A stretch of DNA of 64,000 bases. It comes from an uncultured Oscillospiraceae bacterium (GTDB lineage Bacteria > Bacillota > Clostridia > Oscillospirales > Oscillospiraceae). Shown one piece after another: positions 25,110 through 34,733 of the stretch (position 1 is its first letter; each line of letters begins with the position of its first letter). Both the position numbers and the translations under genes were made by a program. Under the pieces are notes generated by a model that searched no databases, had not been told where the DNA came from, and saw only the letters and a list, made by a program, of their open reading frames with translations. The stretch is taken from positions 1 through 64,000 of the forward strand of contig CANRLZ010000001.1 of NCBI GenBank assembly GCA_947631595.1. Direction: 5' to 3'.

Positions 25110-25147
25110 AAAAACATCCCCGGCCCACCTGGGCCGGGGATGTTTTT
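25110..25147. terminator. Terminator copy, left flank of dispersed repeat A
   Basis: AAAAACATCCCCGGCCCACCTGGGCCGGGGATGTTTTT. Confidence 0.93.
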
Positions 25148-25354
25148 CAGCTTGTCAAAAAAGCCTCGCAGAGTTTCGCGCCGCAGGGCGCGAAAGACTC
25201 ATAAGAAATTTTTTCCGGCGGCGTGTACGTCGGAAAAAATACATCTCGGCCCGCAAACGTGCGAGCCGGCCGCCCTCGCGGCGGCCGGGGAGTGCGCTGC
25301 AGCGGGCCGTAAAAAATGTCAAAGAAGCGGCCCTGCCGCTTCTTTGACAGTCTC
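25148..25354. mobile_element. Dispersed 207-bp structured repeat, copy A (MITE-like, non-coding)
   Basis: CAGCTTGTCAAAAAAGCCTCGCAGAGTTTCGCGCCGCAGGGCGCGAAAGACTCATAAG...TTTGACAGTCTC; ~97% identical to 32074-32280 by eye; several internal hairpins. Confidence 0.85.
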
Positions 25355-25392
25355 AAAAACATCCCCGACCCGCCTGGGCCGGGGATGTTTTT
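25355..25392. terminator. Terminator copy, right flank of dispersed repeat A
   Basis: AAAAACATCCCCGACCCGCCTGGGCCGGGGATGTTTTT, 36/38 identical to 25110-25147. Confidence 0.93.
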
Positions 25393-31502: not shown

Positions 31503-32027
31503 ATGAAAAAAATCCGCGTCCTGTCCCTGCTGCTGTCCGCCGCCCTGTGCCTGTCCCTGGCCGCCTGCGCCGGGGGGAAGAAGGGCGACGCGTCCGACCC
31601 CGCCGCGCTGGCCGACGCCTACGCCCAGGCCATCACCGGCGCCCGTGACCTGGAGTACAACGAGGCCTACCCCGTGCTCACCAGCGCCGACCAGGCTGAC
31701 GCCCAGGAGCGGGAGATGTACTTCGCCACCCTGGGGGTGGAGCCGGCGGACGTGCAGGCCTACGCCATGAGCGTGTCCCTGATGAACGTCCAGGCCTACG
31801 CCATCGTGGCCATGCTGCCCGCCGACGGCGCCGCGGACGCGGTGCGCGCCGGGCTGGAGGGGTATGTGGAAAACCAGAAGAACGGCTTTGAACACTACCT
31901 GGAGGACCAGTTCCAGGTGGCCTCCAGCGCCAAGCTGGAGACCCTGGACGACGGCACCATCCTCCTGGTGATGTGCCCCGACCAGGACACGGCGCTGGAC
32001 AGCATCAAAAGCGCCCTGGCGGGCTGA
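31503..32027 (+). CDS. DUF4358-like lipoprotein
   Basis: Lipobox MKKIRVLSLLLSAALCLSLAAC; C-terminal VMCPDQDTALDSIKSALAG. Confidence 0.75.
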   Translation: MKKIRVLSLLLSAALCLSLAACAGGKKGDASDPAALADAYAQAITGARDLEYNEAYPVLTSADQADAQEREMYFATLGVEPADVQAYAMSVSLMNVQAYAIVAMLPADGAADAVRAGLEGYVENQKNGFEHYLEDQFQVASSAKLETLDDGTILLVMCPDQDTALDSIKSALAG

Positions 32028-32040
32028 CCTTCGGGCAGAA

Positions 32041-32073
32041 AACGCGCCCTCTCCCACGGGAGAGGGCGCGTTT
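32041..32073. terminator. Terminator copy, left flank of dispersed repeat B
   Basis: AACGCGCCCTCTCCCACGGGAGAGGGCGCGTTT. Confidence 0.92.
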
Positions 32074-32280
32074 CAGCTTGTCAAAAAGCCTCGCAGAGTT
32101 TCGCGCCGCAGGGCGCGAAAGACTCATAAGAAATTTTTTCCGGCGGCGTGTACGTCGGAAAAAATACATCTCGGCCCGCAAACGTGCGAGTCGGCCGCCC
32201 TCGCGGCGGCCGGGGAGTGCGCTGCAGCGGGCCGCAAAAAATGTCAAAGAAGCGGTCCGACCGCTTCTTTGACAGTCTCC
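32074..32280. mobile_element. Dispersed 207-bp structured repeat, copy B (MITE-like, non-coding)
   Basis: CAGCTTGTCAAAAAGCCTCGCAGAGTTTCGCG...TTTGACAGTCTCC; differs from copy A by about 5 substitutions and small end/homopolymer indels. Confidence 0.85.
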
Positions 32281-32313
32281 AACGCGCCCTCTCCCACGGG
32301 AGAGGGCGCGTTT
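32281..32313. terminator. Terminator copy, right flank of dispersed repeat B
   Basis: AACGCGCCCTCTCCCACGGGAGAGGGCGCGTTT (33/33 identical to left copy) followed by TTT. Confidence 0.92.
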
Positions 32314-32314
32314 T

Positions 32315-34636
32315 TTACACCGGGGCGGCGGGCGATCCGGCGCGGAGGCCCAGGCGGAGGATGAGGGCGGTCTTGTCGTCCTGGGCCTCCGGGTCGTGAT
32401 CCACCATAGCCTGGGCCAGGGCGGCGGGGGAGCCGCCGTCGAAGGCCAGGAGCGCGTCCCGGACCCACTGGTCCTCCCCGGTTACCACCCCGTCGGTGAG
32501 CAGGGCCAGACAGTCCCCCGGGCCGACCTGGAATTCCAGCCGGTCGCACCGGTTGGGGCCGGGGTCGGGAAGGCCCGCGGGCAGCGACCGGCCGGACAGG
32601 CACTTCACCGTGCCCCCCTGCCGGAGGTAGCTGGGGCTTGCCCCCAGCTTGTAGAGCGTGCCGTGGCCGCCGTAGAGGTCGATCTCCAGCAGGTCCACCG
32701 TGGAAAATCCCCCCGTGGCCTCCCCCCGGAGAACCAGGGCTTGATCCAGGGTCTTCAGGGCGTTGGAGGCGGTCACCCCCGCCCGGAGGAACTGCTCCAG
32801 CAGCTTCAGGCACAGCTCGCTCTCCGCCCTGGCCTCCTGGCCGGAACCCATGCCGTCGCACAGCAGGACGTAGAGGGTGCTGTTGGCGCTTTTGAACCAG
32901 GTGAAGGCGTCGCCGCTGACGCTCTGGCCCTGCCGCCGCCGCCCCGCCGCCCCGGCCAGGGCGGTGAGGGGTTCCAGCTGGACAAAGAGCACCTGGTTCT
33001 CCCCGGCGGTGGGCGGGGAGAGGGGCAGATCCATCAGGTCGGACAGGGCCTTGCGCCCCGGCTCGTCGGCCAGCTTTTTGGCGTCCCAGCCGTCCAGCTG
33101 GAGCTGGAGGTGGCCCTGGGGGTCGGCGAACACCAGCCCCCGGCAGCTCAGCTCCCGCCCGATGAGAAATTGCCGCAGCCGCCGGGTGCGCAGGTCGTCC
33201 ACCGCCACCGGGGCGGCCATGGCCGCCGCCGTGTCCTGGAGGAGGCGCGCCATGTCGCCGTACTGGTCGGCCACCGCCCGGCGGCTCTGGCTCACCTGGC
33301 GCTGGTAGCGCCGGCGCAGGAGGTGGGCGGCCAGCTCCTCCTCCACCGCGCCGAGAAACGCCCCGAAGCGGCAGCACTTGTCCCGAAAGCGCTGGGGAAA
33401 GTCATCGGCCAGCGCCTGGCGGCGCTCCAGCATGGGCGGCAGGGCGGCGTTCAAAAGGTCGTAGGTCTCCTGGTAATCCCGCTGCCAGCACCGCTCCCGG
33501 AGGGCGCACCGGGCGCAGACCCGGTTGGCGCAGCGGTCGAAGATAACGCTGGGGTCCTCCCCGTTGTCCGCGCCGGGGCCGAAGGCGCCGCGCAGGGCGG
33601 AAAAGACCTGGTCAAAGGCGTCGGCCGCCCGGCGCAGGCGGCGGGAGGCGGCCTGGTAGGCCCATCGGCCCCGATCCCGCCGGTCGTCCGGGGCGAAGAG
33701 CACCGCCGCCTGGTCCAGCAGCCGCTGGGGGATGAGCAGGAACAAGAGGGCGGCCAGCACCGCCTCCCAGAGCGCCGCCGCGCCGCCCCTCCGGCTCCAC
33801 AGCGCCGCCCACGCCCCGGCCAGGGCAAACCCGGCGGCGGAGACGCCCCGGCGGTGACCCTTCAGCAGTCCGGCCACCAGGGCGGCCAGGGCGTAGCACA
33901 CGGTAAAGGTGCCCGCCGTGCCGGAGGCCAGGTCCATCATCAGCCCGGCGCACGACCCAACCGCCGCGCCCGCGCCCGGCCCGGCGGTCCACCCGGCGCA
34001 CAGGCTCAGCCCCGCCGCGCACAGCCGCCCCAGGGACACCCGTCCGGGCAGCTCCAGTTGGGCCAGGGACAGCAGCACCGCCAGCGCCAGGGCGATCAGC
34101 CCCAGGCGCTGGGGAAAGCCCGCCTCCTTGGGGGCCTCTCCGCTGTCCCAGAGGGAGAAGGCCAGGCGAAAGGCGTACACCGCCCCCGCCGTCACAACGC
34201 ATTCCCCCGCCAGGGCCATTACCCCGGCGGAGGTGGGGTCCAGCAGGGTCACAAGGCCGGTGACGGCGCAAAAGCCCCCGGCCACCAGGGGCATGAAGAG
34301 GCGCTTTTGGTAGAGGCGCAGGTCGAAAAAGGCCAGGGCCACGGAGAAGATGAGGATGGCGCAGGCGGCGTACCGCAGTCCGGCCTCCACCCCCCGGTTC
34401 AGCAGATAGCCCAGCACCGCCCCGCCCAGGGCGGCGAAGCCCTCCGGCCCCACCCCGGAGGCGCCCACCAGGGCCAGGGCAAAGGGGGCGTGGCCGGGAG
34501 CCAGCTCCCCCGTGGCCAGAACGGCGGCCAGGAGGAAGCGGATCGCCCCCTGGATGAACCCCGCCAGGGCGGAGGCGCGCTCCGTGCCCGGCTTTTCGAC
34601 CTCCTTTTTGCCTGTTCCCCACCGTTTCCACACCAT
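32315..34636 (-). CDS. spoIIE: Stage II sporulation protein E (PP2C phosphatase)
   Basis: Many N-terminal TM segments; C-terminal PP2C: SGDAFTWFKSANSTLYVLLCDGMGSGQEARAESELCLKLLEQFLRAGV...STVDLLEIDLYGGHGTLYKLGASPSYLRQGG. Confidence 0.93.
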   Translation of the reverse strand: MVWKRWGTGKKEVEKPGTERASALAGFIQGAIRFLLAAVLATGELAPGHAPFALALVGASGVGPEGFAALGGAVLGYLLNRGVEAGLRYAACAILIFSVALAFFDLRLYQKRLFMPLVAGGFCAVTGLVTLLDPTSAGVMALAGECVVTAGAVYAFRLAFSLWDSGEAPKEAGFPQRLGLIALALAVLLSLAQLELPGRVSLGRLCAAGLSLCAGWTAGPGAGAAVGSCAGLMMDLASGTAGTFTVCYALAALVAGLLKGHRRGVSAAGFALAGAWAALWSRRGGAAALWEAVLAALLFLLIPQRLLDQAAVLFAPDDRRDRGRWAYQAASRRLRRAADAFDQVFSALRGAFGPGADNGEDPSVIFDRCANRVCARCALRERCWQRDYQETYDLLNAALPPMLERRQALADDFPQRFRDKCCRFGAFLGAVEEELAAHLLRRRYQRQVSQSRRAVADQYGDMARLLQDTAAAMAAPVAVDDLRTRRLRQFLIGRELSCRGLVFADPQGHLQLQLDGWDAKKLADEPGRKALSDLMDLPLSPPTAGENQVLFVQLEPLTALAGAAGRRRQGQSVSGDAFTWFKSANSTLYVLLCDGMGSGQEARAESELCLKLLEQFLRAGVTASNALKTLDQALVLRGEATGGFSTVDLLEIDLYGGHGTLYKLGASPSYLRQGGTVKCLSGRSLPAGLPDPGPNRCDRLEFQVGPGDCLALLTDGVVTGEDQWVRDALLAFDGGSPAALAQAMVDHDPEAQDDKTALILRLGLRAGSPAAPV

Positions 34637-34733
34637 AGGCTTGTCCTCCTTGCGGCTTTTTGGGACAAGCATAGCGGAAACGGCGGAAAAAGGCAGTCGA
34701 AAACAAAGGCCGGGCAGGGATTTGTCCGGCGGG

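Follow-up and report, generated by a model that had tools for sequence, protein, structure and literature searches.

The element inserted between a DUF4358 protein gene and spoIIE is very probably a non-autonomous MITE that is moved by an IS1182-family DDE transposase and that duplicates bidirectional terminators recognised by their palindromic form. This insertion is copy B of two found in the window, which is the whole 64,000-nucleotide stretch of DNA that was analysed; the duplicated hairpin of copy A differs from that of copy B. The features of the two sites are as follows.

25110..25392, + strand: copy A of the element (element at 25148-25354), lying between two copies of a 38-bp terminator of its own
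31503..32027, + strand: DUF4358 protein gene, upstream and convergent (E 2e-12)
32040..32073, no strand assigned: left terminator-hairpin copy (target-site duplication, 34 nt, bidirectional)
32074..32279, + strand: non-autonomous mobile element (MITE), 206 bp
32074..32085, + strand: left terminal inverted repeat CAGCTTGTCAAA, an end in common with the IS1182 remnant L060 of the same genome
32268..32279, - strand: right terminal inverted repeat, GAGACTGTCAAA on the - strand
32280..32313, no strand assigned: right terminator-hairpin copy, 33/34 identical to the left copy
32315..34672, - strand: spoIIE, downstream and convergent (SpoIIE matches E 1e-20 and 4e-33)

The initial annotation had placed copy B between convergent genes and perfect 33-nt copies of a terminator, and both statements hold. 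Profile matches support DUF4358 (+) and spoIIE (-), and identical hairpins lie at 32041-32073 and 32281-32313, spaced 240 bp apart. Extended by one base, the duplication is 34 nt long with one mismatch (AAACGCG.../CAACGCG...). No third locus in the window matches the hairpin pattern with up to three mismatches allowed, and none is expected (0 in 100 shuffles). The AAAA run on the left and the TTTTTT run on the right are likewise intact on the outer sides and shorter on the element-facing sides, as first described. With 206 bp the element is too short for a transposase and has no long ORF of its own; its terminal repeats agree at 9/12 positions.

The genome of origin is a MAG of 1.73 Mb in 105 contigs (79% complete), in which 27 near-full-length copies at 94-100% identity were found, together with one diverged copy (~28 near-full-length copies in all), fragments and 35 matches to RNA model R1. 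These copy numbers are lower bounds because several contigs end inside the element. Copies A and B differ within the element by 5 substitutions and 1 indel, in line with the original estimate of about 5 substitutions plus small indels. The copies are short, numerous and without a transposase ORF, with terminal inverted repeats and a flanking target duplication, as is usual for a MITE.

In the genome-wide survey, the duplication was measured on the 26 copies with exact ends CAG[CT]TTGTCA...TTTGACAGTCTC, and all 26 are flanked by a duplicated hairpin. The duplicated stretch is 17-40 bp long (mean 31.3) and ends at the hairpin base, leaving 0-2 unpaired nucleotides on either side of the dyad; its first base is A in 22/26 and its last base T in 21/26. 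Target hairpins have a mean folding energy of -27.8 kcal/mol. With a T-tract taken as at least 4 T in 8, 22/26 hairpins are followed by one on each strand, and 25/26 on one strand or more. Convergent-gene intergenes hold 16 of the 21 sites that could be scored with a crude choice of ORFs. Hairpins with U-tracts, mostly between convergent genes, identify the targets as bidirectional intrinsic terminators. The hairpin differs at each site in this MAG and the sequences are unrelated, so the feature that targets have in common is their shape.

Transposase genes of the IS1182 family accompany the element in its own and related genomes. The MAG contains one broken IS1182-family transposase gene (NF033551) in remnant L060, whose left end CAGCCTGTCAAAAAACCTCGC adjoins a hairpin and is identical to the MITE left end at 19/21 positions; no intact IS1182 element was found in this 79% complete genome. 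Related genomes carry intact IS1182 elements with MITE-like termini CAGnnTGTCrAAAAA (ends CAGTTTGTCAAAAA, CAGTCTGTCAAAAAAG and others), the terminal match to the MITE being short. An intact 473-aa transposase (L379/L068) scores 384.6 bits against an NCBIfam cut-off of 270 and contains Pfam domains DDE_Tnp_1_6 and DDE_Tnp_1, and transposases above this cut-off occur in 17/151 genomes of the family. Duplications of the entire hairpin flank the IS1182 elements whose transposase frame is long and open: L379 (31/31), L385 (29/29), L386 (30/30) and L382 (33/35, with the loop inverted between copies). L387 has a left hairpin followed by the contig end, and L381 is bordered by a hairpin at just one of its ends. 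The perfect hairpins that bound the IS1182 element L388 (genome G527) differ from each other, perhaps through recombination between two copies.

Shared ends and shared target behaviour suggest that IS1182-family transposases mobilise the MITE. The MITE interior was not found within IS1182 elements, with which it has only the ends in common, and an origin by internal deletion of an IS1182 element was rejected, as a search for the core inside those elements found none. IS1634 and IS1549, known for long variable duplications, were the initial lead as a source; this lead found no support in the literature search and was dropped once IS1182 matched.

These observations are consistent with a mechanism in which the target would be recognised by its palindrome rather than its sequence, probably as an extruded cruciform. 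Cutting would take place on each strand at the hairpin's 5' foot, so that the stagger would match the hairpin in length (17-40 bp); this span of duplication lengths excludes a fixed ruler. The 3' ends of the element would join at the cuts, and gap repair would copy the hairpin to leave a complete terminator on each side, so that both convergent neighbours would retain one. Insertion is plausibly nearly harmless because each neighbour keeps a terminator, which could in turn account for the high copy number. We infer the cruciform recognition, the order of cuts and the neutrality for the host.

Most of the interior of copy B belongs to a core with the features of a structured RNA.

32084..32238, + strand: conserved structured RNA core (model R1, 151.6 bits)
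32096..32125, + strand: RNA hairpin P1
32133..32165, + strand: RNA hairpin P2, a U6...A6 stem with a conserved G-U pair
32172..32234, + strand: RNA stem P3, with conserved tandem G-U pairs and a variable hairpin P3b
32242..32274, no strand assigned: terminal hairpin P4, followed by TTTTTT on the - strand (terminator-like)

In aligned copies from about 26 genera, the core of ~150 nt is better conserved than the ends. Standard pairs occupy 97.1% of paired cells in 97 distinct sequences, compared with 77.0% after shuffling and 38-60% when the pairing is slid by 1-3 columns. Both-side changes (covariation) are seen in 33/35 pairs of this 97-sequence alignment, which was fitted to the RNA model, and already in 23/35 pairs of the unfitted alignment A1; 0/500 shuffles reach any of these measures. 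Since G-U pairs outnumber A-C pairs on the + strand (311 versus 21), the constraint acts on this strand in single-stranded form, for which RNA is the easiest reading and folded ssDNA the alternative. Retention of the fold across genera points to selection on it, for the benefit of either element or host. A scan of the element found no promoter-like site, and transcription of the putative RNA core is presumed. RNA variants with one loop, mostly that of P2, larger by some 30-100 nt and holding extra hairpins were seen at L274:1653-1882, L266:6473-6670, L330:5209-5391, L299:820-1064 and L269:3591-3838.

The strong strand-asymmetric fold would also suit a route in which the folded + strand, as ssDNA or RNA, is itself the intermediate, in the manner of HUH elements, integron cassettes or group IIC introns, and insertion at terminators resembles what is established for the last of these. 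This route is nonetheless improbable given the terminal inverted repeats, the large duplication and the existence of DDE-encoding elements that share its ends and target. Scans with Rfam 15 gave no match to the element core at the gathering threshold, whether to a group II intron or another family, and only chance matches at permissive thresholds; group II ribozyme domains were not detected in the element. With DDE-mediated transposition as the preferred route, a bolder interpretation is that the core belongs to a novel class of small structured RNAs spreading in gut Clostridia as a DNA transposon, that this RNA has a function of its own, either in transposition or for the host, and that copies are auto-insulated by the duplicated host terminators; we offer it tentatively, at somewhat below even chances.

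Element-free orthologous sites give the state before insertion. In G077, a genome of the same genus that was read in stretches covering about 2 of 2.3 Mb, the convergent spoIIE/DUF4358 pair is free of the element and separated by a single hairpin, GACGCGCCCTCTCCCACGGGAGAGGGCGCGTTTTTTT, with the same stem and loop as the duplicated one. L004, L010 and L019 likewise have element-free sites in this genome, each with one conserved hairpin, in agreement with the spoIIE site, and at the empty sites of L014, L020, L024, L025 and L027 there is just one terminator each, unrelated in sequence. The initial annotation named an empty-site ortholog with a non-matching terminator as its refutation, and the match found in G077 upholds it. 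Its proposal, a single bidirectional terminator split with duplication of the core, is thus borne out for the duplication and revised for the cut, which was not made mid-hairpin: the ends fall at both hairpin feet and the whole palindrome is doubled. Neither a transposase to move the element nor the covarying RNA fold figured in that annotation. Elsewhere, the spoIIE 3' intergene of G430 (L155) holds a decayed element copy beside another terminator, probably an independent insertion, and in two congeners (L156:990-1442 in G432, and L153) degenerate ~32-bp repeats resembling GCAGGACTAGACGGTG replace the element at this position.

The same sites weigh against transposition of the IS1272/TnSha1 type, in which the element replaces part or all of the hairpin and duplicates nothing. 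Such a mode would involve the same transposase family and the same kind of target, terminators included (PMC4923244, PMC5678879), and would fit the one-sided hairpin of L381. It is very unlikely for the MITE, since 26/26 intact copies are hairpin-flanked at both ends, whereas only a single hairpin stands at each empty site where it is conserved.

The two hairpin copies at a site sometimes differ, by an inverted loop (CTTTG/CAAAG) or by paired stem changes (L002, L052, L135, L371 and L067), and an inverted loop also separates the two species at the L010 site, empty in G077. Its occurrence between species at an empty site makes the inversion look like ordinary template switching in palindromes, and was the reason to reject it as a trace of transposition. 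Template switching in palindromes, with the inverted loops of L002, L052, L135, L067 and the L010 empty site, could be taken to mean that the duplication post-dates insertion, gene conversion or recombination having copied the terminator across the element. Such copying would be required at all 26 sites with breakpoints at the hairpin base, as well as in IS1182 elements of other genera, and its probability is accordingly very small. An assembly or binning artefact, for which one could cite the fragmented MAG and its contig ends within the element, is extremely unlikely because hairpin and flanks are unique at each site, the empty site lies in an independent genome and the same anatomy recurs in many genomes.

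The motif was detected by DNA search in 66/151 genomes of the family, and also in several other families of the same order (gut Clostridia). Four genomes examined in detail had 17-78 matches each, and among 394 genomes sampled across the class there was no match outside the order. Pattern matches identify records of Flavonifractor, Pseudoflavonifractor capillosus, Oscillibacter and Intestinimonas as carriers, in part with model matches, and BLAST adds a Vescimonas record. Plasmid and phage collections gave weak, partial matches only. Diverged copies were seen on two unannotated fecal 'bacteriophage' scaffolds (L400, L401; MT836293.1, MT838656.1), which may be bacterial fragments. The duplication is also seen in other genera and in another family, and 22/108 copies from named genome records score at least 18 for it, compared with 0.2% of mismatched pairs. 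Many copies in other genomes lack a duplication; we read these as probably decayed.

Target duplications are normally fixed in length by the transposase, whereas here the length tracks the hairpin (17-40 bp). A hairpin-length duplication naturally records structure-guided cutting and opens cruciform targeting to direct tests, and a terminator kept for both neighbours is a simple reason for tens of copies. The element would be a MITE of a known transposase family, with the duplication behaviour, which we have not found described, as its apparently new part. The covarying RNA core is the part with the most room for novelty: its fold is strongly supported, uncatalogued in Rfam 15 and present in common gut bacteria.

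Several known systems resemble this one in part. In CRISPR repeat duplication by Cas1-Cas2, and in casposons, an integrase cuts both ends of a palindromic repeat and repair doubles the repeat; the analogy is formal only, as those systems use a fixed repeat or ruler and another enzyme. HUH elements (IS200/IS605) differ in being defined without terminal inverted repeats or target duplication, both of which the present element has. BOX, RUP, SPRITE, Correia, REPIN and QMITE elements are similarly short, non-coding, high-copy, intergenic and folded. Their duplications are short or absent, and to our knowledge no terminator-hairpin requirement has been reported for any of them and none has this RNA fold. 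QMITEs are a source of small RNAs (PMC10969869).

The closest likeness is to the IS1182 family, whose members in the relatives of this bacterial family exceed the NCBIfam cut-off and have termini in common with the MITE. Direct-repeat lengths listed for this family in ISfinder are very variable. Palindromic targets are mentioned in the review of Siguier et al., as cited in PMC5678879 and PMC4923244. ISCaa15 differs from the present element in having 4-bp repeats (PMC3196728). Our literature search returned no description of a terminator-long duplication set by a hairpin, nor of an IS1182-family MITE. For IS1272 of Staphylococcus, also of the IS1182 family, the hairpin target is replaced or deleted (PMC4923244, PMC5678879); TnSha1 insertion deletes the hairpin (Furi et al. 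2016, PMC4923244), and Wan et al. (2017) drew duplication of a whole stem-loop only as a hypothetical pathway b beside IS1272 replacement (PMC5678879). IS1272, TnSha1 and the present element are alike in the IS1182-family transposase and in hairpin targets of unrelated sequence that are often terminators. They differ in the outcome: IS1272 and TnSha1 targets lose part or all of the hairpin without duplication, whereas here the entire hairpin is doubled.
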